Below the pieces are notes generated by a model that saw only the letters and a list, made by a program, of their open reading frames with translations, was not told the DNA's origin and ran no database searches. A stretch of DNA of 38,604 nucleotides, taken from positions 1 to 38,604 of the forward strand of contig JABGYH010000008.1 in assembly GCA_018675335.1 (NCBI GenBank), read 5' to 3'. Position numbers and translations under genes: made by a program. Of the stretch, positions 9,901 through 32,358 are shown piece by piece. This DNA comes from Candidatus Woesearchaeota archaeon. Its GTDB lineage: Archaea > Nanobdellota > Nanobdellia > Woesearchaeales > UBA11576. Numbering within the stretch: position 1 is the first letter of the stretch; each line of letters opens with the position of its first letter.

Positions 9901-10614
9901 ATCAAACGAACTTACCTCAAACATTGCTTGAGCATATCCATTTTTAACACTAACAGTATAAAAACCATAACCTGTGCTATCTTCAGGAATAGTATAAGTT
10001 TCAGAAGCAGTCCCATTCTCATTTAAGACTAGAGCCATATTTGAATAAACTTCACTTCCTGATTCACCATTATTAAAGAAAATTTTAAGAGGAATAATTT
10101 CAGATGCTAAAGAAGTTTTTGAACCATTTAACTCCAAGTCATACGCTTTTACAGTAATCGTTACCGTATCACCCAGTGAATATTCAGAACTATCAGTATA
10201 AAGTAAATATTGTCTTTTCGGTTCAACATCAAAGAAAGCATAACTTAATGTTGGAGGAATTAAGGGATTTGAATTAAAAAGCATAACTGAGATTGAATAT
10301 TTTCCAGATTCAGATGTGTTACCGAATTTAGGTGCAGTAAATTCACCATCTGAATTTAAAAGAATATTACCAAGGTCATAAGAAGTTCCAGACGGATCAA
10401 AAATCTGAACTGAAACATTCCTGCCAGTTATTGGTGTTGACGTACTACCAACCACATTTTTCGCATAACCTGATACAGTTATGTTTTCGCCCGGTTCGAT
10501 CAGCCCACCAGGCATTGTTTGTAGCCCAAGCTCATCATAATCATCACTGGAAACTATAAACGTTGACAAAATAAACATTATTAGAAATAAAACTAGACAT
10601 ATTGCTTTCTTCAT
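907..10614 (-). CDS. Giant multi-Ig-domain surface protein (3235 aa)
   Basis: The N terminus is a signal peptide (MKKA, hydrophobic core to about residue 22, then SSDDYDELG). Residues ~30-2750 are a long series of beta-sandwich, Ig/MG2-like domains of roughly 100-170 residues. Most open with a YxxGDxVxVxVxV strand and a GxPVxGAxV turn, as in YSLGDTVTITV, YASGELVTVIA and YSPGDTVNVNV. Two cysteine-rich inserts (about 2318-2371 and 2494-2594) carry repeated CxW knots. Residues ~2788-2978 hold five tandem four-cysteine repeats, followed by a C-terminal globular domain to 3235. N-glycosylation sequons are abundant. No C-terminal membrane segment or sorting signal is visible, so the mode of attachment is unknown. 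It is likely an S-layer-like, fibre or adhesin protein; the function is inferred from architecture only. Confidence 0.85.
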   Translation of the reverse strand: MKKAICLVLFLIMFILSTFIVSSDDYDELGLQTMPGGLIEPGENITVSGYAKNVVGSTSTPITGRNVSVQIFDPSGTSYDLGNILLNSDGEFTAPKFGNTSESGKYSISVMLFNSNPLIPPTLSYAFFDVEPKRQYLLYTDSSEYSLGDTVTITVKAYDLELNGSKTSLASEIIPLKIFFNNGESGSEVYSNMALVLNENGTASETYTIPEDSTGYGFYTVSVKNGYAQAMFEVSSFDFDISLFDETGSETKKFSSENNLSLDVSVTQKSGDLVSPVSGATVTAIIKKNNEDDAGTAVYTFSNFAEVSGAYSSQSYDLSDLSSGEYYVEVSVTKSGKKIKNTKYFKIKTLDLELEPLFDNEAINSLLKNDTAAIGINVRDLATGKVYAYNELTDASIIECNQAEIDCMNLLSGEGNLITSTDPDFIAALNFTTPLESGVYRLKIRVNISSEGTNTYVDGVIYVEVDDLVATVSVADRFANLKANVMAGETMTFDTEAWLASNAEALINQVEIISCVDDDGVDVTEEMIKSEGTSEGSDIDVNAPADGGCYTCILEVTTDSGMSSTSEQICVEKYDIWADSRGDDGTWQWRFQSTGNVYFHVNVMNDVGYTVPAADLTIEVSKLTSLTTGKTYLDPIFSVMPNTSSDVPLAQATSKGSGVPVVKIPLASLNLPSGIYRAEFDVTDDEGTVETGDAFFQISNLDVSVTPAKVSNPSSYWPFFKPSSGFVLNVLATDFEGVPVVDGSTVNVDKLLLISGGATAVSTDLYDATSNITASGAAQVTVTPKPGKTLPSGMYLAFVNVNTGSVSETREAWLMVKAFHLIVSNPFYHAPATSLNIIGFVVDPSSMQPKSGVGITFDGFYDSKQAKLIDDINFPDATSNSAGMFTLAVNSSPVKEGEYIFGVSAFDSVSGTHDTYDGFLFIKNYASVECELVNSEQVAVAPGTSVEYKITVTDKFGSGVENVGVEVSKFTNTESNVESTALTTTAGTTNSNGVATLTFKAPNNIGYYRPLLSADDVELTSQEYAWGMIPCEFAVAKTDVDVELYDDSGSSSKDFMAGENITVGFLLSNPSGGAVSMNELKLLSHMCAGGDCLIPTVAEMLAGTVEVTTLLGAKLTSVTQNKNLTFTAPTKQGAYSLNIQTKDSDNSIETISKQFKVVDPVKALGITYNFWQEQNMFSTSDSAKINFSNSGPIKINATRLLDMDDASQVIAGFMGSEASFSEGTNIYSFSVPNNLPGNYEVELCVYPASSTCTNDSDIKLFNFYVESEYFSLARPFNPDGMYLSSDLVDLEIALENKSDAFQSLSSEDITLVNVKKDGTIVSNFAIDSIADSSNVGWELVSLNHTGEVKGWYDATFRIDYAGGSYDVFVGFKIKSQVYNLNLIAADDEVDTYPIYGANEQITFNVSMGDVSESGELYIRDNQMGEFMSELGNNPFTLSSGFAQVNLAIPNFGDYDAVAFIPSKDDPQRIEAHYGFGIKSGFDIFWNHENMNDHIGVGEENLTLNFTVTDNDGNPMIAGTKVNVSIIEYHNPMNWDMINDSVGITGEVTLLDGGIGVFEFDPTDTAGEYGVEIEFEIGANIIHRGTWFKATDGEFHVFTNKQSYASGELVTVIAKVESSNGAPVSGVDVELVNVSYYDAAGTKQGIASELFVSLTNTTDEDGRAETQFNLPPGLNTNFNIEFKRTSPEEFRSFDISSSGYQVEIFEESHPPYAVGDMYIAKIKVMNDDGTPANNIPITYTVKSEFNDWTIINDSISLGNTNNDGKVDFSYLIPDDFMGFYDIEFDIGDGARKEWRGFMISPFDVMIDLRGEITGDDKTYWDWEIPSAAEVVTSITLKDSSGSPIQDAEVSIKDVFKMSKSEGPSVDVTNSINFTSTSSVTDSEGNAEIRFTVAELAGDSDYDLRVEVNVSNKVMDFFKWFRLSAFTWEVELAADPSLDDTTYYQVSSKGPGDLVFVDVNVSGDDVSNYKVCLDRIENTWTWNTNYHSECYDIVSGDLTSFNFTAPSQSGEYNAWIVLKTKDNDDWLKDQSVWFDVKGGAEADYEMHTWINDWNVWSGSNATVVVELWNRNGWQDVDELSACGNVSITEVRDQKTWNLVATDQEIIQDAVQMNPMQGPPGAQLEFLIDNSWAAGEYNARVNCENLGITRDVGFNIVSFQVSSLIPEFVQKGENVSYWIKSTYANGTPLNGGIVTVKELRNMWNWGEAPISIDEDFVLDANGEFIGEIVVPQSTGGYELIMEVTDGETVQEVRKQFEVRGMNVEILINGGADQLYSGEDLTLTVLVVDSNGLPSPNARVNLDVMRHWFAGGGEGTEELVVCSNLAQDECSDECIWNVSSCIGIEEHCQALDSNNCNINPTCNGWWADDGFYCGVEWSNIGESKNSIEGWYEKYTNMNGEAKFKFAGDSAPNKGEYEFNVNVDAPGQGWFWSHKTKVIRKFNLSLSTDSLKYSPGDTVNVNVSATYSNGTPLGSNFKVDAGLEEPKFAMSEQEMDCMNKMTNETCSSKSECEWMTDDFMGGDFGAKSEELDAQMLTCNGEGLACMHITDSDVCTDMSCTWNVDACEGSIVGHCNGIVEMNDCESTSAICMWSEDEGEYVPGNMGWCGAKEVDYDLVENVSFSNGLAQISLDIPSENVTAGSAFIWVDIIKGDKVVEFIDSMILIYDSDTADFELQILNPVVGADEFIEINLTTSEETAGKVMIDQMVKHLQSENGAISMQEMMGGGQESGKTDWLGSPIYINPNAPTHFVVLSRARPGTYTSLLELRKKGSSFFGPADMAGMLFANYEVNSTSGECSLFVECDDNNSTTRDVCLQTKCTHYVISEESECSFDGECPNYPAQGLYGVCDFTGQCNNISGECEGANDCDDTNTSTFDYCDNYMCEYESTTDVECTTDSQCTDIPPEHVSLCEYGECHYVPEANIGCNADSECIDQYGDNWFCDMWDKQCHEIKNCECDSVVDCAEEPYGVETVAVCECMCDYFHEDDLIMLYDWDKSTDALGNMSSGILWGWNGTEGADEAKPFEGSPGGDIVFAQIANDSTYMYTQMKLGGFEWNGGLPYCEGSFPSDPSRGRIYNQSYVAYYNTIDSQGSTLAGIEGADFKFELAFGEDPSYVSDNFYFWSAGQWVLDEVIDTNYSITCKNPMQSIDFKVLLDDLAFDNESNVNEIILATRMTDFETYQETWTVHDCFWNESAQMDDCFDTEYTATDFSVFENQFVDLVPNSGWHDMFDRGWDELGGEQ
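913..921 (-). promoter_or_regulatory. Shine-Dalgarno inside the end of the giant gene
   Basis: GGAGGTGAG on the minus strand lies 5 nt before ATG 907 and also encodes the last residues of the giant protein. With the TAATG overlap it fixes the start of the downstream gene and implies translational coupling. Confidence 0.75.
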
Positions 10615-19352: not shown

Positions 19353-19619
19353 ATGAAGTACGAATTAGAGCTTAACACCGCAGTTGAAGAGATAAAGCAA
19401 GAAAATGCAAAACTTGTATGCGTACAACTCCCAGATGGACTTAAAACTCAAGCTAAAGAAATTACAGATTTTTTACAAGAAAAAACAAAAGCAAAAATAA
19501 TTATATGGGCAGGAAGCTGCTTTGGAGCATGCGATGTTCCCCTCGAACTTGAAAAATTAGGTGTTGACTTAATAATTCAATGGGGACATAATAATTGGAA
19601 AAGAGGAATACTAAAATGA
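19353..19619 (+). pseudogene. dph2: Diphthamide synthase Dph2, N-terminal fragment only
   Basis: The 88 residues match the first domain of archaeal Dph2: VCVQLPDGLKTQAKEI, then WAGSCFGACDVPLE and LGVDLIIQWGH. C60 corresponds to the first of three conserved cysteines that bind the 4Fe-4S cluster used to transfer the aminocarboxypropyl group of SAM to a histidine of elongation factor 2. A full enzyme is about 320-350 residues. Here the second and third domains, with the other two cluster cysteines, are missing, and the frame ends after WGHNNWKRGILK. The promoter is intact and the stop overlaps the next start (ATGA). It is most simply a deletion remnant. A working copy elsewhere, or a retained one-domain protein, cannot be excluded. 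Confidence 0.75.
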
Positions 19620-20113
19620 TTGGATTAGCAACATATTACTTTGTAGCACTCATAGTTTTCTTAGGAATTTATTGCGGAGTCGCACTTGGCAAAATCGCAA
19701 AAGAAGAATTAGACCCTGGGAAAAAATATATAGAAATGTTTCAAGCAGCACTATTAAGTGCAATTGTTTGTTCTACATCTTATTTTTTCGGACTTCACTG
19801 GATGTTTGGATTATTAGTTTTTTTCCCACTCGCATTTGGAGCAGACTACTTAGTACGAAATCCACTAGTCATACAATTAACTTATGTACTACTAGGATTT
19901 TTATTATTCGCAAGTACCTCGTCCACAAAATTCTTTTTAGTGATTAGCAGTTTGATATTTTTATTTGGACTACCAACTGGAAGTTTATACGTACAAAGAC
20001 ACCCAACTCAATCAACTAATGTGATAGTATCAGATATGGCAGTATCCTACAGTGTGTTTTTTGTAGTTGCAATACTTACAAGTTTTTTAAGCATCATGCT
20101 AAATAACTTATAA
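19616..20113 (+). CDS. Small polytopic membrane protein (165 aa)
   Basis: The protein has five or six hydrophobic segments (about 5-27, 46-64, 66-84, 88-107, 109-127 and 143-163) with short loops and no catalytic motif that I recognise. I use ATG 19616 rather than the upstream in-frame TTG at 19595. The ATG overlaps the preceding stop as ATGA and has an AGAGG element about 10 nt before it. The coupling to the Dph2 fragment may reflect a deletion that joined the two genes. The function is unknown. Confidence 0.7.
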   Translation: MIGLATYYFVALIVFLGIYCGVALGKIAKEELDPGKKYIEMFQAALLSAIVCSTSYFFGLHWMFGLLVFFPLAFGADYLVRNPLVIQLTYVLLGFLLFASTSSTKFFLVISSLIFLFGLPTGSLYVQRHPTQSTNVIVSDMAVSYSVFFVVAILTSFLSIMLNNL

Positions 20114-20975: not shown

Positions 20976-21074
20976 GCCCTCGTAGCTTAGCGGTGGAGCG
21001 TGCGAATCTTAGAATAAAATAAGATCACGAAGCTGTTAACCGCAAGGTCGCCAGTTCAAACCTGGCCGAGGGCG
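20976..21074 (+). tRNA. tRNA-Asn (GTT) with a 27-nt intron
   Basis: All arms are visible. The acceptor stem GCCCTCG pairs with CGAGGGC, followed by discriminator G at 21074. The D arm GCTT/GAGC encloses the GG-containing loop. The T arm is GCCAG-TTCAAAC-CTGGC. The anticodon loop CTGTTAA gives anticodon GTT. The anticodon stem TGCGG/CCGCA forms only after removal of an intron at 21005-21031. CCA is not encoded, as is usual in archaea. The 3' end of this gene is the apparent attachment site of the adjacent integrative element. Confidence 0.95.
21005..21031 (+). other. tRNA intron at non-canonical position 30/31
   Basis: A full bulge-helix-bulge fold is visible. The central 4-bp helix CGTG/CACG is flanked by the 3-nt bulges CGA and AAG, and the inner ATCTTA/TAAGAT stem closes an 8-nt loop. 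Cutting after the second base of each bulge removes exactly these 27 nt and restores the TGCGG/CCGCA anticodon stem. The splice junction is inside the stem (30/31), not at the usual 37/38. Confidence 0.9.
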
Positions 21075-21079
21075 CTCAT
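21055..21079. repeat. Left attachment repeat (attL) at the tRNA-Asn 3' end
   Basis: The 25 bp from the T loop through five bases past the tRNA match 32334-32358 at 22 of 25 positions. The last 17 (TGGCCGAGGGCGCTCAT, 21063-21079) are identical. This is the usual signature of tyrosine-recombinase integration into a tRNA 3' end. Confidence 0.85.
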
Positions 21080-21119
21080 ACTTTCTGTAGCCCTTTATGG
21101 GCGCATCATCATAATAAAA

Positions 21120-21629
21120 ATGATAAAACTAAAAAATTGGCTTAATTCAACTGTAATTGTACCTGCAATATTTGTTATTTTTAGCATAATTCTAATAATT
21201 ATTCCAAATATTTGCATAGGTAGAAAAAGCTTCGGCGCTCTTTGTTTAATATTTTCAACATTATTCTTAGCTAAAGAAGTTAAAAGACACTATTTTATCA
21301 CCCTGCCCGATATCAAGCATGAATTTAAATCAAAAAAACATAAAGACATTGCGTGGTATTTAACAAAACATGAAATAAAATATGTGTATCCAAAAATAAT
21401 AAAAATTAATCATAAAAAAATAACTATGGATTTCTATCTTCCAGAATATGACATATACTTAAATTATTTAACCACTCGTTTAACAGATAAATCAAACGAT
21501 AAATTAAGAAAACTATATACTGATGAGGGAATTTTAGTTGTAGAATTAGATTATTTTGACACATATACCCTAAAAGTTCTTGATTGGAAATTTAGTGAAA
21601 GAATGTTAAAATTACTTAAAAAATCATAA
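21120..21629 (+). CDS. Membrane protein with degenerate endonuclease-like domain
   Basis: This 169-residue protein has two membrane segments (about 10-32 and 36-52) followed by a small cytosolic domain. The domain reads HKDIAWYLTKHEIKYVYPK, then ITMDFYLPEYDIYLNY, then KLRKLYTDEGILVVEL. This follows the pattern of the restriction-endonuclease-like domain also found inserted in the element's helicase (ERDIANFLFKHNIKFEYEP, then YEPDFFIPDLNIYVEHWG). The acidic residue expected after the PD strand (Glu in IYVEHWG) is Asn here (IYLNY), so the domain is probably inactive and may bind DNA or a partner. It is the first gene inside the element. Its stop is 1 nt before the start of the DUF2779-type gene, so the two are likely co-translated. 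A weak TATA-like CCTTTATGG sits about 25 nt before the ATG. Confidence 0.65.
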   Translation: MIKLKNWLNSTVIVPAIFVIFSIILIIIPNICIGRKSFGALCLIFSTLFLAKEVKRHYFITLPDIKHEFKSKKHKDIAWYLTKHEIKYVYPKIIKINHKKITMDFYLPEYDIYLNYLTTRLTDKSNDKLRKLYTDEGILVVELDYFDTYTLKVLDWKFSERMLKLLKKS

Positions 21630-21630
21630 A

Positions 21631-23067
21631 ATGTCTCTGCTTACTAAATCCAAATACTTAAACGGAACTCAGTGCCCCAGATTACTTTGGCACGCAAATA
21701 AGAAACTATTGCCTGAAGTGTCTGTAGCAGACCAACATAGATTTGATCAAGGTTTTGAGTTTGAAAATGTTGCTCGAAAGCTATTTCCAGAAGGTGTTAA
21801 TTTAAGTAAACTTGATTTTCTAGGTAATTTGGATAGTACCAAAAGATTAGTTACTAAAAATAAAACCATTATTGAAGCAGGTTTTAAAGAGGATAATTTA
21901 TTTGTAAGATCAGATGTTCTTAAATTTACTGATAATGGTTGGAATTTATATGAAATTAAATCCACTACCTCAGTTAAACCACAACATATTACTGACTTAG
22001 CTTTTCAAAAGTTTTTAATTGAAAAAACAGGTATTAAAATAAACAAATGTTTTGTTCTATTTCTAAATAAAGCGTTTGTTAAACATGGAAAGATTAATCC
22101 TGAAGAAATTGTTTTTAAAAAAGAAGTTACAGAACAAGTTGGATTAATTGATGATATTGAGACTAATATAGATAAATATCTTTATATAATGCAACAAGAA
22201 AAAGCTCCTGAAATGACAATATCTAAAGGATGTAATAATCCTTATGAGTGTCCTCTAAAATCTGAGTGTTGGGGAACTCTTCCAAGTAATAATGTAACTC
22301 AATTAACAAATTGGAGACAATATTGGAAATTGTTTGAAGAAGGCATTCAAGATATTAATGATGTTCCTAAAGATACAATTCTTAAACCTAAAGATGAAGT
22401 TATTAGAAAAGCAGCAGTTGAAAAGAAAGTGCAGATTTCTAAAGAACACCTTAAACATTTTATGAATACTTTAGTATTTCCTTTATATCATTTTGACTTT
22501 GAGACATTTGATACTGCAGTTCCCATTTATGATAAATCTAGACCATATCAAAAGATTCCATTCCAATATAGCTTACACATCCAACATAAAGATGGAAAAA
22601 TAGAACACTTTGAATATCTTGCAGATGGAAAAGAAGATCCGCGTTTTAAATTATTAGAACAGTTAGAAAGCCAAATTGAAGGAACTGGTTCAGTCGTAGT
22701 TTTTAACAAATCTTTTGAGATTATGGTTTTGACCAAATTGGCAGAAGACTTTTCTAACCATGCTGAATGGATTAACAAAGTTTTAGGAAGAATTGTTGAT
22801 TTAGCAACCCCTTTTCAAGGATTTCATTATTACTGTCCCACCCAGAAAGGTCGTTATTCAATCAAAAAAGTAATGCCTGCAATAACTGGAAAAGGATACG
22901 ATAATTTAGAAATTAATAATGGAGCAGAAGCATCAGTGCAATATTTCAATAGCCACATAAAAAATAATACTCCCGATCCAAACCTAAGAGAAAACCTACT
23001 CAGATACTGCTGTTTAGACACAGAAGGAATGATTTGGATAATCAATGAATTAAATAAATTAGTTTAA
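21631..23067 (+). CDS. DUF2779-type protein: Cas4-like nuclease fused to DEDD exonuclease
   Basis: This is a 478-residue fusion. The N half (1-215) has a Cas4/AddB-like PD-(D/E)XK core: RSDV (D95) and YEIKS (E108, K110). It has four cysteines placed for a 4Fe-4S cluster: C15 (QCPRLLW), C201, C207 and C213 (CNNPYECPLKSECW). The C half (280-478) is an RNase H-fold, DEDD-like 3'-5' exonuclease: HFDFETF (D289, E291), a middle helix with RIVDL (D390), and CLDTEGM (D463). The layout matches the DUF2779 family, known from domain architecture in archaea and bacteria, for which I know no settled function. Cas4-like enzymes process DNA ends. It sits directly after the membrane protein, suggesting a membrane-associated DNA-processing pair. 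Confidence 0.8.
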   Translation: MSLLTKSKYLNGTQCPRLLWHANKKLLPEVSVADQHRFDQGFEFENVARKLFPEGVNLSKLDFLGNLDSTKRLVTKNKTIIEAGFKEDNLFVRSDVLKFTDNGWNLYEIKSTTSVKPQHITDLAFQKFLIEKTGIKINKCFVLFLNKAFVKHGKINPEEIVFKKEVTEQVGLIDDIETNIDKYLYIMQQEKAPEMTISKGCNNPYECPLKSECWGTLPSNNVTQLTNWRQYWKLFEEGIQDINDVPKDTILKPKDEVIRKAAVEKKVQISKEHLKHFMNTLVFPLYHFDFETFDTAVPIYDKSRPYQKIPFQYSLHIQHKDGKIEHFEYLADGKEDPRFKLLEQLESQIEGTGSVVVFNKSFEIMVLTKLAEDFSNHAEWINKVLGRIVDLATPFQGFHYYCPTQKGRYSIKKVMPAITGKGYDNLEINNGAEASVQYFNSHIKNNTPDPNLRENLLRYCCLDTEGMIWIINELNKLV

Positions 23068-23310
23068 TTTTTCTCGCCCGATAATATCCCTATAACAGAG
23101 ACTGAAATGCCCGAAGGACTAAAAGCCCACCCTAAATAAATTTATTTTACAATTTAAACTACCATATGTACATAGCACTCAGGAAAATCGGTTTTTTGAA
23201 ATTTAAGATCTTAATACTTAAGGGATTTTATCTTTTATTATATGATAGTATTTAATTACCAATTTAGCTTGTTTTTTAATTCTTCAACACATAGTTTGCG
23301 AATAAATTAG

Positions 23311-23323
23311 TAAATTTTATAAT
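23311..23323 (+). promoter_or_regulatory. TATA box of the membrane HNH gene
   Basis: AAATTTTATAATC is centred about 27 nt before ATG 23346 and implies a leaderless transcript separate from the preceding pair. Confidence 0.5.
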
Positions 23324-23345
23324 CTACAGTTATTAGTTTAATTTA

Positions 23346-24365
23346 ATGGCAAAAAATAAGGAGTTAAATATCATATTAATTGTAATAGGAGTCATCGTAA
23401 TTATTATTTCAGGCATTATATCGTTACTTAAAACTTTTGCAGGACCAATTGTTATTGTGTTAGCAATACTGGTCGGCCTGTTTTTGATTTTTAAAATTTA
23501 TGAACACATATATTTTTCAAGTGAAAAATTCAAAAATATAAAACAAAGTATTCAAACGCACATAGATGATTGTAATGAATTAAATCACCATATTGAAGAA
23601 TTAAAAGGTTCATATGTAAACATAAAATCATATGATTATGGGGAAGGTTTAATGAAAGATGCTAGTAACCACAATTTTAAAAGAAAAGAATGGTCTAGCG
23701 AAGTAAAAAACACTCAGGTTCATAACTGCTCAGCTTCTGTCTGTAAAAATGCAGGTAATCAACCACTTAAATATATGTGTAAATATTTTGACATAAAAAA
23801 AACAGATGAATCATTAACTCAATTTGAAACTGTACTTAACAACTTTTCCGCAGCGGAGGAAGGTAAAACTTTGTTGTTAAATCAACGAGATTCAAGTCTT
23901 AGCAATATAAAAAATTCTATCCCTGGGATAATAAACACTTTTAGTAAAAACCGATTAATAAAAGAGCTAGGATTTGAAGAAATTGATCTTAGTGATTTGT
24001 ACTTTCCAACTTATACATTCCAATATGTATCCGCAGGGGGAAATAGTTCGATGAAATATGATATTAAATTGAACATTGAAAATTTGAATAAGTTAGTCAT
24101 TTATTTGAAAGATCTGATCAAGTACAAAAAAAGCGTTGTAGGGCAAAGAGCATTAATGACATCTAAATTAAGAGAAAAAATTAAAATTAGAGATCATTAT
24201 ACATGTAAACTTTGTAATTTATCAACCAATGATGAAAAAAACTTATTATTAGAAATTGATCACATACATCCAGTTTCAAAAGGAGGGATTACAGCTGAAG
24301 ATAATTTGCAAACTTTGTGCTGGAGATGTAATAGATCAAAAGGTGCCAAAGTTTCAGCTTCGTGA
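23346..24365 (+). CDS. Membrane-anchored HNH nuclease
   Basis: The 339 residues start with two adjacent membrane segments (about 8-26 and 29-52). A largely helical cytosolic part with some cysteines (HNCSASVC, then YMC, around 125-145) follows, and the C terminus is an HNH domain (about 275-336). The HNH motifs are complete: CKLC (about 287-290), IDHIHPVSKGG (Asp-His at 305-306), NLQTLCWRCNRSKG (about 319-332). HNH domains cut DNA using one metal. Fusion to a membrane anchor is an architecture seen in anti-phage effectors and in some toxins. It has its own promoter. Target specificity is not visible. Confidence 0.8.
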   Translation: MAKNKELNIILIVIGVIVIIISGIISLLKTFAGPIVIVLAILVGLFLIFKIYEHIYFSSEKFKNIKQSIQTHIDDCNELNHHIEELKGSYVNIKSYDYGEGLMKDASNHNFKRKEWSSEVKNTQVHNCSASVCKNAGNQPLKYMCKYFDIKKTDESLTQFETVLNNFSAAEEGKTLLLNQRDSSLSNIKNSIPGIINTFSKNRLIKELGFEEIDLSDLYFPTYTFQYVSAGGNSSMKYDIKLNIENLNKLVIYLKDLIKYKKSVVGQRALMTSKLREKIKIRDHYTCKLCNLSTNDEKNLLLEIDHIHPVSKGGITAEDNLQTLCWRCNRSKGAKVSAS

Positions 24366-24616
24366 ACTGACATTTAATAATCCTGCTTTGAGAACCAGCA
24401 TTTAAAACATAAAATTATTGTATGTGATTAAAGACTGACTCACCAGAATACATCTTTTATAGTCCTACAATATGTACAAATATATTTTTGTTTTATTTTA
24501 GTGCCCACTGTCTGAGGGCCCATATATTTTTCCCAAATATGCAATCCAAGCCTACACCTAAAACGTTTCATCATTTTATGATTAATTTTATTTTATAAAA
24601 ATCTTTTTAAAAAAAA

Positions 24617-24847
24617 TTAAATAAGTTTTATCTCTTCATAATCTTTCAATTTCCTAGTTTGAAATTGTTTTTTCTTAAGTAAAACATAATATTCATATAA
24701 CCAAGGTATTTGCGGATACTTATCACTATCAACAAAAAAACGAGCACTATCCTCCCAATTCATCAAAGGAGCTAAAAACTCTTCCATCAATCGTATTCGT
24801 TCTTTTAATTCTTCTTTTGTAAACTCAAATTTTGCACGCATCGCCAT
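24617..24847 (-). CDS. Small unrecognised protein (76 aa)
   Basis: This is a short charged protein with two helical stretches (FTKEELKERIRLMEEFL and WLYEYYVLLKKKQ), no cysteines and no membrane segment. A convincing minus-strand TATA box (CTTATATATT, about 24869-24878) sits about 26 nt before the ATG, which argues that the frame is real. It lies next to the repeat-nuclease gene and could be a regulator or small partner, but nothing in the sequence shows which. Confidence 0.5.
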   Translation of the reverse strand: MAMRAKFEFTKEELKERIRLMEEFLAPLMNWEDSARFFVDSDKYPQIPWLYEYYVLLKKKQFQTRKLKDYEEIKLI

Positions 24848-24865
24848 TTAAGCCATTAAGAAATC

Positions 24866-24880
24866 ATAATATATAAGGTT
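24866..24880 (-). promoter_or_regulatory. TATA box of the 76-aa gene
   Basis: AACCTTATATATTAT read on the minus strand, about 26 nt before ATG 24847. Confidence 0.45.
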
Positions 24881-24975
24881 CACACAAGAAAGTCCAATGG
24901 GTAATGGAAACTTTATTAGTTTTAGTTCCAATATCATTTGAGACAATATAAAACTCAATGAGCACACCCTACTTT

Positions 24976-26466
24976 TTAATCTAATTTACAATATTTCCAA
25001 CATTCACTTAATGATCCAAATTTTCTTATAATAGTATTTGTACTAGGAAGACCATATTCCCGCTTAAACTCTTTGACATATGGTTTTCTCCCATGTTTGG
25101 AACAGAACCGAATTATTAAATCTCGAATCTCTTGTTTATCACAATATTTCTTGACATACTTTGATTCACTATGACCCAATTTTTTTTTTAATTTAGCCAA
25201 AGAAAAACCAAAAATCCTAGTATATGTGTTTGCTGATGGATAACCTTTAGCTTTATCTAATGTAGTTGCAGAAGGTAGTTTACTAAATTCTTTTTTGAAT
25301 CTGTACAATTCAGCAATTAAATCTTTTTTAGTCCACAAACCAATCTCTTTTCTTAGTTCATCATCCTCCATCTTAATAAATGACATACATCTTTTCGCAA
25401 GCAAGTCACACCCATTCTTCAATAGAATATCATGAATCTCCTTAGCATAAACATATTTGACTGGAAGTTTTTGCTGTTTCTTATTTTTTTGTAAACACCA
25501 AAAAGATATGTTTTCTGTTATCTTTAAATATTGCTCACATTGCTTGTCACTTCTGTTCTTAATATGATAATCAGAAAGTTTAGCATCAATAATTAAGTCT
25601 AAAGAAGGAATATAATTATCAGGGATTAGCAATTTATCATCAATAACAAACTTTTTCTTAACTATAGCATCAGGATACAATTCTTTTACTGCTTCTTGAA
25701 CAAAACGTTCCCATTTAAAGGGAAGACTATTCTTATTAGCCCATTCACTTTTTTTAAAACCTGCTTTTTCTAAAACTTCATGCCAAGTATTTACTTGCAA
25801 AATTCTTTTGACTATCACATATTCAGGTTTACCTGTTGAAAAATCCAGTGCTTTTGGAACTCTAGAATGTAATTTTTTAAAATCATGAAGAGAACTTATT
25901 ATCATTTTTTTTGTATATTTCATCTCTTTTGTTATATCCAAACCAGCTTTTTTAATAGCGTTATTCCAACTTCCAAATCGTCGATGATACAATATTGATT
26001 TAGGATAACTCTCATCAAGCTTATCAAATTCATTTACTTTAGGCGTGCGTCCTAATTTTTCTGATACTTGCTTTAAAATATCCAAAAGTTCATTATTTGA
26101 GTAATCCTGTCTTCTGCTAAGAGGAATCCCTGCTTTCCTTAGAAGATTATTCCACGTACCAAATCTTTGAGCATACATACTTGAAAAGTCTTTGGCATCT
26201 GGACTTTTTCCAGTTTTATTATATTTCTCTCTAACGCTATTGATTATATATTCATCAGTTACTTTTTTTCCAATTTTTCTTACAGAAATGATATTTAATC
26301 CAGCTTTCTGCAAAGCCTTATTCCACGATCCAAATCTATTTGAATATGTTAATCTACCCGGAAGACCTTTTCCAAAATCTCTAGATTTAGGAACTCTTCC
26401 CTGTTCTTTATAGAAAATAATTAAATAATCTAATAATTCATTATCAGTATATTTACGTTTAACCAT
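24976..26466 (-). CDS. HNH-associated-repeat protein with internal PD-(D/E)XK-like domain
   Basis: This 496-residue protein holds six copies of the roughly 50-residue repeat found beside HNH homing endonucleases (Pfam HNH_repeat; typical ending RFGSWNxALxKAG). Copies lie at about 6-57, 69-115, 122-177, 184-238, 378-431 and 441-494. These repeats are small DNA-binding modules. Between the fourth and fifth is a different domain (250-345) with IPDNYIPSLDLIIDAKLS, giving P282-D283 and D294-A-K296. This is a plausible PD-(D/E)XK active site preceded by helix KWERFVQEAVKELYP. No HNH motif is present. The arrangement suggests a site-specific DNA-binding endonuclease in which modular repeats read the target. 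It has its own TATA box (26491-26510). Confidence 0.75.
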   Translation of the reverse strand: MVKRKYTDNELLDYLIIFYKEQGRVPKSRDFGKGLPGRLTYSNRFGSWNKALQKAGLNIISVRKIGKKVTDEYIINSVREKYNKTGKSPDAKDFSSMYAQRFGTWNNLLRKAGIPLSRRQDYSNNELLDILKQVSEKLGRTPKVNEFDKLDESYPKSILYHRRFGSWNNAIKKAGLDITKEMKYTKKMIISSLHDFKKLHSRVPKALDFSTGKPEYVIVKRILQVNTWHEVLEKAGFKKSEWANKNSLPFKWERFVQEAVKELYPDAIVKKKFVIDDKLLIPDNYIPSLDLIIDAKLSDYHIKNRSDKQCEQYLKITENISFWCLQKNKKQQKLPVKYVYAKEIHDILLKNGCDLLAKRCMSFIKMEDDELRKEIGLWTKKDLIAELYRFKKEFSKLPSATTLDKAKGYPSANTYTRIFGFSLAKLKKKLGHSESKYVKKYCDKQEIRDLIIRFCSKHGRKPYVKEFKREYGLPSTNTIIRKFGSLSECWKYCKLD

Positions 26467-26876
26467 AGTAGTAATAATAGCTAGTTTTTATGGATTATAT
26501 ACTTTTTCTTTTTTGGTGCAATATAACTAATTTAAACAATTAAACCAATAAACAATAATAGGTATGATCACCAAAATTAATTTCTAATAGCGCAACAACT
26601 TTTATTTTTTTAAAATGGGTAACAGACAGTTTAATGGATTGGGGTTTTAAAAAAAATCAATACCTAAAAAAAGTCCTTTCTTTTGGAAGGGTGGCGTAAC
26701 TGAAATTTTAAGAGGTCAAACTGAGTTCAAAAAAAGTTGTTTCTATACTATCTTTAAGATTATCTTTAGGTATATCAAGTAAAGGATAATCCTAAAAATA
26801 CTTTAATACAAAATATAACATAATAGAATATAATAATAAAATAATAAATAATAATAAAAGAAATAACTAAAAAAAA
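26467..26876. other. 410-bp AT-rich non-coding region within the element
   Basis: The region holds the promoter of the 496-aa gene (AAAAAGTATATAATCC on the minus strand, about 26493-26508). It also has a bulged 11-bp hairpin at 26758-26791 and a nearly pure A/T tract with TAATAA repeats at about 26806-26866. No coding frame is supported. The hairpin plus AT-rich tract could be a replication or regulatory site of the element, but nothing more specific is visible. Confidence 0.4.
26758..26791. repeat. Imperfect inverted repeat in element intergenic DNA
   Basis: GATTATCTTTA pairs with TAAAGGATAATC (one bulged G) around an 11-nt loop. It lies about 85 bp downstream of the zinc-protein stop and has no T-run, so a simple terminator is unlikely. 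Confidence 0.35.
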
Positions 26877-27182
26877 TTATTTAGAATTAATATTTAATGA
26901 TTTAATGTGTTTTATGAACTCAGTAGCAGACATATTTTCCAATCCTACGAATAAACTCTTATCCAGGAAAGGGTTTCCTTCTTGTTTTTTCGAATAAGGA
27001 TAACCAAGTCGAAATATCCAAGAACGACACTGAGTACTGCTGCACGCACGTATTTCCGCCCTATTACCACAAACACAATCAAAACATCTTAATCTATGTG
27101 CTTTAGTAGCAGAAATGCGAGGGACCGCACTCTTTCCAGAACTTGGCTCAGAGTGCGGCACAGTAGAAGGTGTTTCAGACAT
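26877..27182 (-). CDS. Phage-type zinc-binding protein (101 aa)
   Basis: The core KAHRLRCFDCVCGNRAEIRAC and TQCRSWIFRLGY follows the pattern C-x2-C ... ExRxC-x4-C-x-x-(W/Y)-x-(Y/F)-R-x-G. This pattern recurs in small zinc-binding proteins encoded by many tailed phages. The ligands would be C33, C36, C47 and C52. The N terminus is Ser/Pro-rich and disordered; the C terminus is helical. I use ATG 27182, with a GAGGT element about 11 nt upstream, rather than the TTG 9 nt before it. It overlaps the stop of the 52-aa gene by 8 nt, so the two form a translationally coupled pair. Its presence supports a viral or mobile history for the element. Confidence 0.6.
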   Translation of the reverse strand: MSETPSTVPHSEPSSGKSAVPRISATKAHRLRCFDCVCGNRAEIRACSSTQCRSWIFRLGYPYSKKQEGNPFLDKSLFVGLENMSATEFIKHIKSLNINSK

Positions 27183-27333
27183 TCGAATCAACCTCGCAAC
27201 AACCCCTTAAAAAAATTTGTAGAAAAAAAGAACCATCAGAATCATTAATTTTCTTAATAACATACTCAGAAGGAGGAAAAATCTCTTCCAAACATAAATT
27301 CCCCAAACAAGATAATTTAATTTTTTCTTTCAT
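27175..27333 (-). CDS. Small coupled protein upstream of the zinc protein (52 aa)
   Basis: The frame starts MKEKIKLSCLGNLCLEEI and ends CCEVDSNV, overlapping the zinc-protein start by 8 nt. A longer frame to 27399 exists, but its extra N terminus is low-complexity Phe/Ser/Tyr. ATG 27333 has a TATA-like box (TATTATAATA, 27351-27360) about 23 nt upstream, so I use that start. A cysteine pair (C9, C14) and a late CC are the only notable residues. The family is unknown and an overlapping frame on the other strand competes, so confidence is modest. Confidence 0.4.
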   Translation of the reverse strand: MKEKIKLSCLGNLCLEEIFPPSEYVIKKINDSDGSFFLQIFLRGCCEVDSNV

Positions 27334-27362
27334 AAAAAAAGAAAATGTTATATTATAATAAA

Positions 27363-27378
27363 TAGAAAAGTATTTAAT
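27363..27378 (+). promoter_or_regulatory. BRE/TATA promoter of the 370-aa gene
   Basis: TAGAAAAGTATTTAAT shares GAAAAGTATTTAA with the giant surface-gene promoter and is centred about 27 nt before ATG 27402. It is back to back with the minus-strand promoter of the 52-aa gene. Confidence 0.5.
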
Positions 27379-27401
27379 TGAAAAAGACGACATAAACAAA
27401 T

Positions 27402-28514
27402 ATGAGTGTTTCAGACCCTAAACTCCAAAACAAAGAAAAAATAAAGAAATATGTTAATTTAAAAATTACAAATCTTAATGACTTAATAATAAATTTTAAA
27501 CGCGAAAATAAAATCATAAAAGAAAGAAATAAAATTGAAAAAATACTTTTAACTTGCATAAATAATTATTTGACATATAAACACAAATTTAAATTAAAAA
27601 CCCAAATAACTCATTTTAATCAATTTAGAAAAAAAGGTGCTTTGAGCTTTTTACAAATCTATGAATCCACAAAAGAAATAACAAAACTAAATTTTCAAGA
27701 ATACTGCCAAATAATACAACAATTACTAACACAAAACCTAATAAAATTTAGAACCGACAAAGAAGAAGTATTTAAACAAACAATACTAAACAAAATTTCT
27801 TACTTACACCCTAACAACCCACAAGAAATTTTTATTGGAAATAAAATACCCCTAATTTGGTTTACTTCAAAAGGTGCAGATGAAGATAAAAAATATTTAT
27901 CTAGTATTTTAATAAAATTAAATAAAACTAAAGAAATAGGTTTTTTTAATTACTCTGAAGACTTATTTGAGAGATTCCATTTGAATAAAATATTTTGGGA
28001 TCCATCTAGAAAAGGATCGCCTAAAAAAATTAGATATTATTTTCCCACCCCACTCAGAGCACAAATAATGAATAAACTAGATAAAATTCATAAAAAAAGT
28101 GCTCCATTTCTTACAGCTGTAAATAATAATTTAATTAAAACTAATCTTAAAGTAATTGATATATTTTTAAATATTATTTGTGCAGAACTGTTTTTTGTAA
28201 ACAAAACGTCATCAATTAAACGACAGTTGAATGATTTAACTGAACAATCAACATTTTTGAAAAACTGTTTAGGAGAATTATACAAGAAAAGAAAATTTCA
28301 GTATTTAATCCAGAGAGAAAATTTTAACATGCACTTATTAAATTATTATCTGAAAGATTTAAAGAAAATATCAATATTAAAAAATGATGAACTATTGGCA
28401 GCTAAGTTAAGGATGTTTAACAGAGAAATTAATTTTTTTGCGTTGTTTGAAGCGCAGTTTACAGAAATTTATGAGATAATTAAAAAGGACATGGGCTTAA
28501 GGAATTATTTCTAA
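27402..28514 (+). CDS. Unrecognised Lys/Asn/Ile-rich protein (370 aa)
   Basis: I recognise no family. The protein is basic and helical throughout, with no membrane segment, cysteine cluster or nucleotide-binding motif. An early stretch (about 70-130, FNQFRKKGALSFLQIYESTKEITKLNFQEYCQIIQQLL split over two helices) could be a winged-helix-like DNA-binding region. A later segment (IFWDPSRKGSPKKIRYYFPTP) is the most distinctive part. It lies between the zinc-protein pair and the helicase and is convergent with the helicase. A replication or regulatory role for the element is possible by position only. Confidence 0.55.
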   Translation: MSVSDPKLQNKEKIKKYVNLKITNLNDLIINFKRENKIIKERNKIEKILLTCINNYLTYKHKFKLKTQITHFNQFRKKGALSFLQIYESTKEITKLNFQEYCQIIQQLLTQNLIKFRTDKEEVFKQTILNKISYLHPNNPQEIFIGNKIPLIWFTSKGADEDKKYLSSILIKLNKTKEIGFFNYSEDLFERFHLNKIFWDPSRKGSPKKIRYYFPTPLRAQIMNKLDKIHKKSAPFLTAVNNNLIKTNLKVIDIFLNIICAELFFVNKTSSIKRQLNDLTEQSTFLKNCLGELYKKRKFQYLIQRENFNMHLLNYYLKDLKKISILKNDELLAAKLRMFNREINFFALFEAQFTEIYEIIKKDMGLRNYF

Positions 28515-28552
28515 TTTTTTGTCCCTTTAATATTGAAACTTGCAAGCTCATT

Positions 28553-28581
28553 ATGATTTTTGTTTTTCAACAAAAAATCAT
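28553..28581. terminator. Hairpin between convergent genes
   Basis: ATGATTTTTGTT and AACAAAAAATCAT form a long stem with one bulge around a 4-nt loop, 38 bp after the 370-aa gene and 52 bp after the helicase gene on the opposite strand. It is well placed as a bidirectional terminator. Confidence 0.5.
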
Positions 28582-28633
28582 ATGGCTCGCGCGTAACTAA
28601 AAGCAGTTAAGGGCCAAAAAAAGATATTAAGTA

Positions 28634-30994
28634 TCAAGTGAAATCAAAAAAATTTATTGGTTTTGGCGGTTCTAAGTATTCAGCTATTTCAGTTAAAAAA
28701 AGAGATTTGCTATTTTTGTTAGTGTAAATGTATAAGAATTCTTTGCTTCGGGTTAGTGCTACGTAAAACAAGCGTCTTTCTTCTTCGAAACTTTCTTGGT
28801 TTCTCGGGTTTTTAGCAATTGCTAAAACTGAGTCATTTTCTATTTCACAGGGAAAGCCATAAGTTCCAGAAATTACATCTATTAAAAAAACATGCTTTGC
28901 CTGGGTTCCTTTGGATTTATGCGCAGAATAAAATCTAATGCCTTTTTGTCTTTCTTTATTTGTGGGCAAGCCTTTTTTACTAAACACCTGTTTCATTTTT
29001 TTTAAATTTTTGTTAAATCTAGAAATAATTAAAATTTCTTCCGGTTTAACGCCTTTAGCTATTAGTGTTTTAATTTTTTTAAGTATATGACCAGTTTGCC
29101 GTTCAATCAAACAACTAAAATTTTCATTCAACTCAAATAATTCTGCTTTCCTAACTAATTTATTATGCGAAATAACTGTTTTTTTTATCTGATTAGAATT
29201 ATTTTTTATTAAATCGTTAGACATATCTACAATAGTTTTACTGCAACGATAATTCTTTGATAAATAAATAAGATCGGGATACTCAAAATATTCTTTAAAA
29301 TTAACAAAAAAATCAACTTCACTTCCTGCAAAATGATATATGCTTTGCCAATCATCACCCACACAAAATAGTTTAGTTTTTGATTCTGGATTAACAAAAC
29401 ATTTGATTAATTCTAATCTCTGTTTAGAAATGTCTTGAAACTCATCTACTAAAATATAATCATATTTGTTTAAAAAAAGAGATTTATTTGAGTTAACTAA
29501 GTCTGCTGCCTTGTTAATCATATCATTAAAATCAATTCTATTCTCTTTTTGAAGCAAATTTTCATATTTTGAGTATATTTCATTAGCTATTTTTGCAAAA
29601 GACTTTTGTCGCACATCATAATTAGTTGAATTAATACGGTTCGTTACTTTTTCAGGAGTTAATAAATTAGATTTTGCTAATTGAATAAAAGTATGAATAA
29701 GGCCTGAAAGTTTTTGTTTAGTTTCTTTAAACTCATATGTTTTTTCCACTAATTCTTTATAAGTTAACGTATTAAATAATATTTTATTATTATGTTTTAA
29801 TAAACGAATTTTGAGTTTTTTAAGAAGGCTATTTTGTTGACGTTCAAATTCATATGTTTGAATTAGAGTTTTAGAATGTTTATCGAACTGATTGCAAACC
29901 CAATCTTTTTTTAAATTATATTCTTCACTACTCATTGAAAACCATTCAGGCACTTCATATTTTTCGTTTAATCCCCAATGTTCTACATAAATATTTAAAT
30001 CTGGAATAAAAAAATCAGGCTCGTATTCTTTAAATTTAGGGTTAGAATCAGACCAAGTTACTTTAGGTTCGTATTCAAATTTAATATTGTGTTTAAATAA
30101 AAAATTGGCAATATCTCTTTCTGCAAGAGATTTAACTTTTACATTTGTTAAAGTAGCATATTTCTTTGATCTCATATACTCATAATATAGTTCTTTTTCT
30201 TTAAATTTTATATTTGCAGGATCTTCATATAAATGGTCTGAAATATAGTCTACAAATAATTTTTGAAACTCTTTATCAGCCAAACTAGAGTTAATCAAAT
30301 TATTTATTACTTCTTTAAATTTATAATCTGCATTATCTCCATTAAACAATAACTTGGGATGTTGTTTGGTTACTTCAGAAATAATGTTATTTCCAAATTT
30401 ATGAAATGTTGAAATATTTATGTCAATACCATATTCTTTTTTTAGTCTATTTTGCATTTCTTTAGCTGCAACGTTAGTAAATGCTAACGCAAGTATCTTT
30501 TCAGGCTTTATTGAATCTTTACGCCTGACTAAATATGCAATTTTAGAAATTAATACTTTAGTTTTTCCAGAGCCTGCACCCGCAATAACTAAACTATGCT
30601 TATCATCTTTTATTACTGCAGTTCTTTGATCTGAATCTAATGGATGATCTAACTTGTCATCATCACCAGCTAAAAATGTAGAGTATTCTTTTAATCTTTT
30701 TTTAATGAACTTAGAATTGTAATTTAATACGCCCTCATTAAATATATCTAAATCTAACCTTAGTGAATTTACTAAAGAATTTAAACTTAAATTCCAAAAA
30801 AGAAACCACTTAACTTTTGATTGACTTTTAATAGCTTTAGTTCGAAATAAAAAATTATTCTTCTCACCACATATTAAGTAAGTATCTTTTGATAAAAATG
30901 AATTCCAGTTTTGATTTAAGCTTGCCAACTTATCCCGTTGTTTAGATATTGCTATTTCGTTTAATTCAATTTTGTTTTTTAACCACTGCACCAA
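28634..30994 (-). CDS. UvrD/helicase IV-like SF1 helicase with inserted nuclease-like domain
   Basis: This 786-residue protein has the SF1A motifs in order: Walker A GAGSGKT (139-145), LAFTNVAAKEM, Walker B DEFQD (517-521), GDDWQSIYHFAG (546-557), NYRC, YSAHKSKGTQ and RRLFYVALTRS. The N-terminal 110 residues resemble the helicase IV (HelD) N domain. Residues ~285-385 are an insertion with ERDIANFLFKHNIKFEYEP, YEPDFFIPDLNIYVEHWG and WVCNQFDKHSKTLI. This has the layout of a PD-(D/E)XK nuclease fold: D327 in the PD strand and E338. It would unwind and perhaps cut DNA. The start is TTG 30994 or GTG 30991, with AGGTG 8 nt upstream. It follows the integrase by 24 nt and is probably co-transcribed with it. 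Confidence 0.85.
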   Translation of the reverse strand: MVQWLKNKIELNEIAISKQRDKLASLNQNWNSFLSKDTYLICGEKNNFLFRTKAIKSQSKVKWFLFWNLSLNSLVNSLRLDLDIFNEGVLNYNSKFIKKRLKEYSTFLAGDDDKLDHPLDSDQRTAVIKDDKHSLVIAGAGSGKTKVLISKIAYLVRRKDSIKPEKILALAFTNVAAKEMQNRLKKEYGIDINISTFHKFGNNIISEVTKQHPKLLFNGDNADYKFKEVINNLINSSLADKEFQKLFVDYISDHLYEDPANIKFKEKELYYEYMRSKKYATLTNVKVKSLAERDIANFLFKHNIKFEYEPKVTWSDSNPKFKEYEPDFFIPDLNIYVEHWGLNEKYEVPEWFSMSSEEYNLKKDWVCNQFDKHSKTLIQTYEFERQQNSLLKKLKIRLLKHNNKILFNTLTYKELVEKTYEFKETKQKLSGLIHTFIQLAKSNLLTPEKVTNRINSTNYDVRQKSFAKIANEIYSKYENLLQKENRIDFNDMINKAADLVNSNKSLFLNKYDYILVDEFQDISKQRLELIKCFVNPESKTKLFCVGDDWQSIYHFAGSEVDFFVNFKEYFEYPDLIYLSKNYRCSKTIVDMSNDLIKNNSNQIKKTVISHNKLVRKAELFELNENFSCLIERQTGHILKKIKTLIAKGVKPEEILIISRFNKNLKKMKQVFSKKGLPTNKERQKGIRFYSAHKSKGTQAKHVFLIDVISGTYGFPCEIENDSVLAIAKNPRNQESFEEERRLFYVALTRSKEFLYIYTNKNSKSLFLTEIAEYLEPPKPINFFDFT

Positions 30995-31018
30995 TTCTAA
31001 AACACCTTTTAAATATAA

Positions 31019-32275
31019 TTACTCCGTTAATGAAAGTAATTCTTTTTCTGATAAATTAATCTTATTAGTTTTTTTAGATAATAAATTTATGAATTTTTTC
31101 ATAACCTTACTTTGTTCATCAATAATTTCATTTTGTTTTTTCATTAATTTAACTTGTTTATTCATTTCTTCAACTTCTGTTTTTAAATCATCATTTCGTT
31201 TTGAATAAAGCTTTTCTCGATTTTCAAATTTCTCAAGTTTATCATGTAATTCTTCCAGCTCAAATTGACGAATTTTTGCTTTAGGTGCATGCGTATCAAT
31301 AGCTAAAAAATTAATATACTTATTAATCTCATCACTATTAGGTTTATGACCTAATCTTTTATTTACTTCATCAGTAGTCCATTTCTTCTTCAATAAATCA
31401 CAAGCCATTCCAGAACGTAAATCTTTCCAAGTAACTTTTTCACCATTAGGAATACATTTTTGTTCTGTCTTTTTAACAAACCTATCCAGAAATTGTTTCG
31501 CATTACGATATTCAAAGGGAAATAAATAATCTTGCGCACCCAAATTACTTAATTTTTTATCAATTAAATTCACAGTTTCAGTATAATTAGTAAGTTCACT
31601 CCTAGGAGTCCTACTTCGTTTAAGAATTTCACGTTTTAAATTAACCCTATACTCAGGTTCTTTAGTATTAGAATTTTTTTGCAAATAAAAATCACATTTT
31701 TTCAATTTTAGCAATGCATTAATACTTTCTCCAATATCCCATGCCAACCACAGCAACAACCTATGATCAAGCTTTGATGCAGCACCTTCAATCAGCTTAA
31801 ATTGTTTTTCAATTATGAATCTAACTTCTTTATTGCTTTTTTTAGTGTATTCTATAACTTGCTTGGCCAATTTCAATTTACCTGCAAGTTCAAATGGTTT
31901 ACTTTTAAAAACTCTACTGTAATAAGTAGTATTCAAATTTTCATAAGGTTTTCCATCCTTTCTTAAAATTTTACCATCTTCTAAATCATCATACACAGTC
32001 TGAATATCCTCTTTAGTTAATTGTTTCCAAGCCTTATTCTTAAACCAAGTATTCACAATTCTAAACTTATGCACGTACCCAGAAAGAGTTTTAAACGTAC
32101 TCGCATCTAAATTTCTCAATCCATTCATCCGTTTAAGTTTTTTTTCTTGCCAAACAAAAAACTCACCAAATAACTCACGATTACTTTTACAAATAGTCAC
32201 ATCACTCAATAATACTTTCTTACCATTCAAATACTGTTTTGCACGTTTTTCACGCTCTATCTCAATCTTATTCAC
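31019..32275 (-). CDS. Tyrosine-recombinase-like integrase with coiled-coil tail
   Basis: The 418 residues comprise an N-terminal SAM-like core-binding part (about 30-120), a catalytic part (about 165-325) and a C-terminal coiled coil (about 330-400). Catalytic elements visible are TWKDLRSG (R287), LGHKP (H310) and KYINF (Y320, the likely nucleophile). The first catalytic Arg is not where expected: the usual TGxRxSELLxL is DIGESINALLKL here (179-190). The start is GTG 32275, which lies about 26 nt after a very strong BRE/TATA box, so the mRNA is leaderless. The gene lies immediately inside the right attachment repeat, the normal place for the integrase of a tRNA-inserted element. Confidence 0.8.
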   Translation of the reverse strand: MNKIEIEREKRAKQYLNGKKVLLSDVTICKSNRELFGEFFVWQEKKLKRMNGLRNLDASTFKTLSGYVHKFRIVNTWFKNKAWKQLTKEDIQTVYDDLEDGKILRKDGKPYENLNTTYYSRVFKSKPFELAGKLKLAKQVIEYTKKSNKEVRFIIEKQFKLIEGAASKLDHRLLLWLAWDIGESINALLKLKKCDFYLQKNSNTKEPEYRVNLKREILKRSRTPRSELTNYTETVNLIDKKLSNLGAQDYLFPFEYRNAKQFLDRFVKKTEQKCIPNGEKVTWKDLRSGMACDLLKKKWTTDEVNKRLGHKPNSDEINKYINFLAIDTHAPKAKIRQFELEELHDKLEKFENREKLYSKRNDDLKTEVEEMNKQVKLMKKQNEIIDEQSKVMKKFINLLSKKTNKINLSEKELLSLTE

Positions 32276-32295
32276 TTAAATTAAAAAATATAACA

Positions 32296-32313
32296 AATAT
32301 ATAAACTTTCCGC
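32296..32313 (-). promoter_or_regulatory. BRE/TATA promoter of the integrase
   Basis: CGGAAAGTTTATATATTT read on the minus strand is among the best promoter matches in the window. It lies 29 bp inside the right attachment repeat, about 26 nt before the GTG start. Confidence 0.65.
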
Positions 32314-32333
32314 CCAATAGGGTGTCAAATATA

Positions 32334-32358
32334 TTCACCCTTGGCCGAGGGCGCTCAT
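32334..32358. repeat. Right attachment repeat (attR)
   Basis: This is the second copy of the tRNA-Asn 3' end: 17 bp identical (32342-32358) and 22 of 25 overall with 21055-21079. No complete tRNA surrounds it, so it is the element-generated copy. Confidence 0.85.

Follow-up and report, generated by a model that had tools for sequence, protein, structure and literature searches.

A probable archaeal homing-type endonuclease with HNH_repeats on both sides of a PD-(D/E)XK-like core, and the association of its relatives with mini-introns in carB

The Pfam HNH_repeat (PF18780) occurs as a tandem unit in proteins that carry a C-terminal HNH domain and are encoded by solitary genes. I-Ssp6803I is an intron-encoded enzyme that, to our knowledge, has no HNH_repeats. 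It is cited as the bacterial PD-(D/E)XK homing endonuclease (PMC3943268). The EDxHD homing endonucleases (I-Bth0305I type, Vsr-like) are elongated multidomain enzymes with a restriction-type core (PMC3943268). Among phage proteins, the best annotated match to the protein described here is Geobacillus virus E3 gp35, a hypothetical protein with several HNH_repeats and a C-terminal restriction-like core (D..EYFG). In the collaborative homing of phages, a free-standing nuclease gene lies beside a conserved gene that is interrupted by an intron (PMC10448857).

The window, the whole stretch of 38,604 nucleotides of Candidatus Woesearchaeota DNA analyzed here, contains an ORF for a protein with the same tandem repeat unit as the PF18780 proteins. 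It differs from them in lacking HNH and in having a PD-(D/E)XK-like core in its interior, between two groups of repeats. The features of the ORF are:

24976..26466, minus strand: ORF of 496 aa with an ATG start; four HNH_repeats, PD-(D/E)XK-like core, two HNH_repeats
26293..26451, minus strand: HNH_repeat 1, aa 6-58 (Pfam, finer profile)
26122..26262, minus strand: HNH_repeat 2, aa 69-115, shortened between the helices (finer profile)
25933..26103, minus strand: HNH_repeat 3, aa 122-178, the best Pfam stretch (Pfam, finer profile)
25750..25917, minus strand: HNH_repeat 4, aa 184-239, FGSWN box degenerate (QVNTWHE) (finer profile)
25339..25746, minus strand: PD-(D/E)XK-like core of ~135 residues, aa 241-376 (12-member alignment A8)
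25708..25713, minus strand: W252-E253; W invariant, E in most members, Q in the MCM-linked group (A8)
25618..25623, minus strand: P282-D283, invariant in 12/12 cores (A8)
25579..25587, minus strand: D294-A-K296; (D/E)xK in 12/12 cores (A8)
25168..25335, minus strand: HNH_repeat 5, aa 378-433 (finer profile)
24979..25143, minus strand: HNH_repeat 6, aa 442-496 (finer profile)

Pfam detects the HNH_repeat in six stretches of the ORF with E = 2.3e-68 and 226.8 bits (curated cut-off 26). Together with a finer repeat profile, this confirms the six repeats of the initial annotation, four before and two after the core, and places them on the minus strand; the plus strand of 24976-26466 has stops throughout. 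The six repeats score 63-86 bits with the finer profile compared with 4.4 bits for the best repeat-like stretch in 500 shuffled copies. Because these repeats were part of the training data of the finer profile, the unbiased test is Pfam, a source independent of the window, and the Pfam E of 2e-68 rules out a chance or low-complexity origin. Repeat 4 was not separately matched in one earlier repeat search and was found by the finer profile. In AlphaFold models from a two-sequence alignment, every repeat forms a small helical unit, at a pLDDT of about 66-85 by blocks. No HNH, GIY-YIG or LAGLIDADG family in Pfam or NCBIfam matches the protein, and the initial view that the repeats are detached from HNH stands. 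The ORF is present in one copy in its genome, and the only direct repeats immediately flanking it are a 13-nt A/T run. A group I or group II intron was rejected as host of the ORF because an Rfam search of the window yields only a tRNA.

Conservation of the core was analyzed in A8, which aligns 12 diverged cores, the other 11 being 22-55% identical to that of the window. The order of the conserved residues is W252-E253..KLLIP282-D283-NYIPSLDLIID294-A-K296..Q309..Y313..W323, and seven A8 columns are invariant (W252, P282, D283, I293, K296, Y313 and W323 in window numbering). At position 294 the window and its closest relative (L065) have D, and the other ten members have E. The residue numbers originally assigned to P282, D283, D294, A295 and K296 are correct, and the D/D/K set proposed with them is conserved throughout A8, with D or E at 294, so the proposal withstands the conservation check named with it. 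The invariant and near-invariant residues of the core are those of the PD-(D/E)XK sequence pattern.

Searches for the fold gave similarities that are weak yet consistently placed on this pattern. Two AlphaFold runs with two-sequence alignments returned most of the core at pLDDT <50, a low confidence, and Foldseek with the full model gave only meaningless helical matches. The A8 profile produced marginal matches to PDB sequences, nearly all of them to influenza PA endonuclease (best E 0.02-0.1), in which PD aligns on PD and (D/E) on E at the PA active site; the top PDB match is CspB (0.016), which is not a nuclease. I-Ssp6803I gave no sequence match in the PDB searches. Comparison of A8 with Pfam identified DUF7487 (5.8e-6; four members), with VRR_NUC, MmcB-like and Tox-REase-7 marginal at about 0.1, and the core family carries no Pfam name. 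A Holliday resolvase (0.03) and an endonuclease were marginal matches in PHROGs. In an hhalign comparison the catalytic motif lines up with that of archaeal Hjc, but the score is not above that of shuffled profiles, and the comparison is given no weight here. The core differs from the EDxHD enzymes: it has PD-x10-(D/E)xK with no H-D follow-up, the E-D-x-H-D motif (YEFLGDYWHGNP-type) is absent, and repeats also follow the core. An hhalign comparison with viral EDxHD-like proteins aligned only 14 columns.

The HNH_repeat is a shared targeting module. Its partners in the same phylum are HNH (L006), LAGLIDADG (L051 and others), a helicase protein (L033) or none (two repeats), and the order of the window includes repeat-plus-HNH proteins such as L006/L030 (two repeats and HNH). 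In IMG/VR contigs the partners are HNH, EDxHD-like, Vsr/DUF559-like and one other PD-(D/E)XK-like core, where Pfam names the repeats only and the non-HNH cores are assigned by motif. L136, L137 and L140 are the viral proteins whose core was classed as EDxHD-like, by visual inspection of the motif. The E3 gp35 core is C-terminal and Vsr/DUF559-like by motif, and its 26% identity to the window protein lies mostly over the repeats. The HNH_repeat in L033 sits within a large DEAD-box/restriction-type helicase protein. Seven proteins of ~125-155 aa (L007, L010, L016, L025, L026, L027 and L037), mainly from one family of the order, consist of two HNH_repeats only. The initial annotation proposed a modular target-reading nuclease and implied that this pairing is unique. 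The conserved D/D/K set, the weak PD-(D/E)XK similarities and a genomic context of the relatives that fits homing favor the first part, but uniqueness does not hold, since EDxHD-like, Vsr/DUF559-like, LAGLIDADG and further PD-(D/E)XK-like cores are joined to the HNH_repeat in phage and archaeal proteins. The window protein differs from these combinations in that its core is internal, is flanked by repeats on both sides and belongs to a family unnamed in Pfam.

BLAST over 279 genomes of the phylum followed by a profile scan over 353 genomes of the same order located repeats plus core in about 15 genomes, the window's included. The closest relative (L065/L129), from Candidatus Woesearchaeota RIFCSPHIGHO2_02_FULL_36_13, is a 573-aa protein with 49% identity that has four repeats, the core and three repeats. 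It is the only close relative with repeats on both sides; in the remaining relatives all repeats precede the core. Synteny between the window ORF and the closest relative (L169) does not extend beyond the ORF itself. Viral scans with the window protein alone, with the carB-type alignment and with the MCM-type alignment found no relatives.

Eight relatives lie in the carA/carB gap adjoining the carB start, and five are directly 3' of MCM, ahead of an RPA-like gene. All are solitary intergenic genes without helicase or integrase partners. Two genomes of one genus (G229 and G407) have CarB proteins that are 77% identical and nucleases that are 44% identical, and two genomes from different families (G090 and G482) have CarB at 62% and the nuclease at 69%. 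This disagreement between nuclease and CarB identities indicates that the relatives' genes are horizontally exchanged. Broken copies are also present, with an internal stop in G229 and truncated or split genes in G183 and G424. The traits of the homing class (a solitary mobile gene, a conserved site, exchange and decay) are thus found in the carB and MCM relatives; for the window copy, the one trait established is its location on a mobile element (below). The same carB slot is occupied by a LAGLIDADG gene in eight further genomes, to which the strong LAGLIDADG matches (E <1e-70) of an order-wide scan are confined. Most of the LAGLIDADG proteins from the carA-carB gap (L111-L115, L117, L118 and L123) share an N-terminal 'TGHWTSA..' leader with the PD-(D/E)XK proteins. 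The carB slot looks as if nuclease cores had been swapped behind one shared leader.

The carB gene beside these nucleases is usually interrupted. Short inserts of about 17-36 nt with stops or frameshifts occur at one or both of two places, between GSGA(L) and KIG and between GE and FDYSG (carB 5' region of L002, L005, L031, L038, L057, L058, L110-L115, L117, L118, L120 and L124). The remainder of the interrupted gene is open over about 1000 codons in most genomes, so carB does not appear decayed. All 14 second-site inserts tested fold into a common structure of a 3-4-bp helix, a 3-nt bulge and a hairpin of variable sequence. The helix is GGCG/CGCC, with a compensated change to GTG/CAC in G282, and the bulge is AGA/AAA. 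The two exons meet after the second nucleotide of the bulge, and on the 3' side the predicted folds have a looser loop than a strict bulge. The BHB introns of cbf5 are 16-44 nt long with the exon joint placed likewise (PMC2738675). From these features the carB inserts are classed as BHB-type mini-introns.

Inserts are present in 14/15 carB genes with an adjacent nuclease gene and in 3/82 without one (Fisher p = 3.5e-13, a value that ignores kinship and overstates independence because the genomes are related). The counts over the order are 14 genomes with nuclease and insert, 1 with the nuclease only (G432), 3 with the insert only (G413, G144 and G313) and 79 with neither; G346 and G421, with insert-bearing carB genes at contig edges, are excluded. 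Most inserts were read directly; for the insert of G144, and for the intact state of carB genes outside L078-L107, the call was based on the match table. The insert-bearing genes span at least 6 families of the order, and the G279 insert differs in sequence from the others. Mini-introns were found in 0/3 complete MCM genes beside a nuclease. At three loci (L031 2400-2460, L002 1306-1340 and L117 3080-3144) the nuclease ORF continues in frame into carB exon 1 and stops within the mini-intron, so splicing would fuse the nuclease and carB frames.

The six repeats, the conserved core, relatives at recurrent slots, their exchange and broken copies, LAGLIDADG genes in the same slot and the mini-intron association together argue that the ORF probably encodes a PD-(D/E)XK endonuclease of the homing type, free-standing and equipped with repeats that recognize the target. 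The surroundings of the window copy have these features:

21063..32358, no strand: integrated element, 11.3 kb, inferred boundaries; each end has a copy of a 17-bp direct repeat, with the tRNA on the left and the integrase on the right
20976..21074, plus strand: tRNA gene with intron, the integration target; anticodon GTT by inspection (Rfam RF00005)
21063..21079, plus strand: att-like repeat at the tRNA-Asn 3' end, TGGCCGAGGGCGCTCAT; last 12 nt of the tRNA plus 5 nt
23346-24365: TM+HNH protein, a second nuclease gene beside the ORF (Pfam)
31019..32275, minus strand: tyrosine recombinase (integrase); PHROG integrase 5e-10, weak Phage_integrase
32342..32358, plus strand: second exact copy of the att-like repeat, just outside the tyrosine recombinase gene

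About 0.002 matches of such a 17-mer are expected by chance. The tRNA gene was overlooked by ARAGORN and detected by Rfam. In G493 and G494 a homologue of gene 19595-20113 also lies upstream of the same tRNA, and no element genes follow in the available stretch. The att-like repeat, the integrase and this left flank without element genes make it most likely that the ORF is carried as cargo by an element of ~11.3 kb that has integrated in a tRNA-Asn gene. A 370-aa element gene (27402-28514) is absent from 9/9 family relatives searched. A viral scan with the element integrase found no relatives, and a plasmid search with the element gave no match. The element also encodes a DUF2779/Cas4-like protein and a UvrD/HelD-like helicase (Pfam), and a resolvase-like 169-aa protein (PHROG Holliday resolvase, E 0.001). 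The helicase (28634-30994) has an inserted 'EPDFFIPDLNIYVEHWG' stretch that resembles a Vsr or restriction-like nuclease motif. The cysteine-rich product of ORF 26877-27191 (104 aa, no Pfam or PHROG match) recalls small phage zinc-ribbon proteins, and ORF 907-10614 is a single frame of 3235 aa with no PHROG match.

As element cargo beside a second nuclease gene, the ORF could instead encode a site-specific endonuclease that the element directs at competing elements or viruses, in exclusion or a restriction-like role, and not at the spread of its own gene. Phage homing-type nucleases are active in inter-phage competition and exchange (PMC10448857). This role is unlikely, however, for a family whose members outside visible elements occupy conserved chromosomal genes and are horizontally exchanged, and the only PADLOC match, a type II REase model, is marginal (E 0.004) and aligns over the repeats. 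The resolvase-like, Cas4/DUF2779 and helicase proteins of the element raise the idea that the ORF product is its recombination or replication nuclease (resolvase-like or end-processing), with repeats that bind structure and not sequence. That idea is quite improbable: those functions are already supplied by the other element genes, the relatives are solitary, without helicase or integrase partners, and the HNH_repeat elsewhere accompanies site-specific endonuclease types. A DNA-binding regulator with a dead nuclease core is very improbable, because although nuclease-free two-repeat proteins in the same order mean that the repeats can stand alone, the D/(D/E)/K set is kept in the window and all relatives, even at 22% identity.

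A homing-type endonuclease would work as follows. The HNH_repeat units, as small helical DNA-binding modules flanking the core, would read a long target, and the PD-(D/E)XK-type core would cut it with the conserved acid/acid/lysine set. The relatives would cut those alleles of conserved host genes (carB, MCM) that lack the nuclease gene, and this gene would be copied in alongside during repair; a carB site interrupted by an intron would be immune to cutting. The window copy adjoins neither carB nor MCM, and its neighborhood yielded no target or interrupted gene. Riding on the tRNA-Asn element, this copy may cut a target in a competing element or a host allele.

The location of the relatives beside a usually interrupted carB suggests that enzymes and introns spread together. 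The arrangement resembles the collaborative homing of phages in that a free-standing nuclease gene lies beside an intron-interrupted conserved gene, but the carB introns are tiny archaeal BHB-type introns and not group I introns, and the likeness consists of an association at the carB-slot relatives. Within open papers, the scope of the literature check, cbf5 was the sole archaeal mRNA BHB intron reported up to 2020 (PMC7714728), and the origin of the cbf5 intron was called unclear (PMC2738675). There is about an even chance that free-standing homing endonucleases, the HNH_repeat plus PD-(D/E)XK family included, spread jointly with carB mini-introns in Woesearchaeales-like archaea, where the nuclease would cut the intronless site, the mini-intron would mark the immune allele and the host splicing endonuclease would excise the mini-intron from the transcript. 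Of these findings, the mini-intron association should surprise a specialist most.

The window gene probably encodes a selfish, sequence-specific DNA-cutting enzyme. It belongs to a family, probably of homing endonucleases, whose restriction-type core is surrounded by tandem repeats that read DNA, and the family bears on the evolution of modular specificity. Through the relatives, it also offers a testable account of where the tiny introns of archaeal protein genes come from. Joint spread, if true, would amount to collaborative homing in archaea with introns of minimal size, and it would account for the origin of such introns in protein genes.
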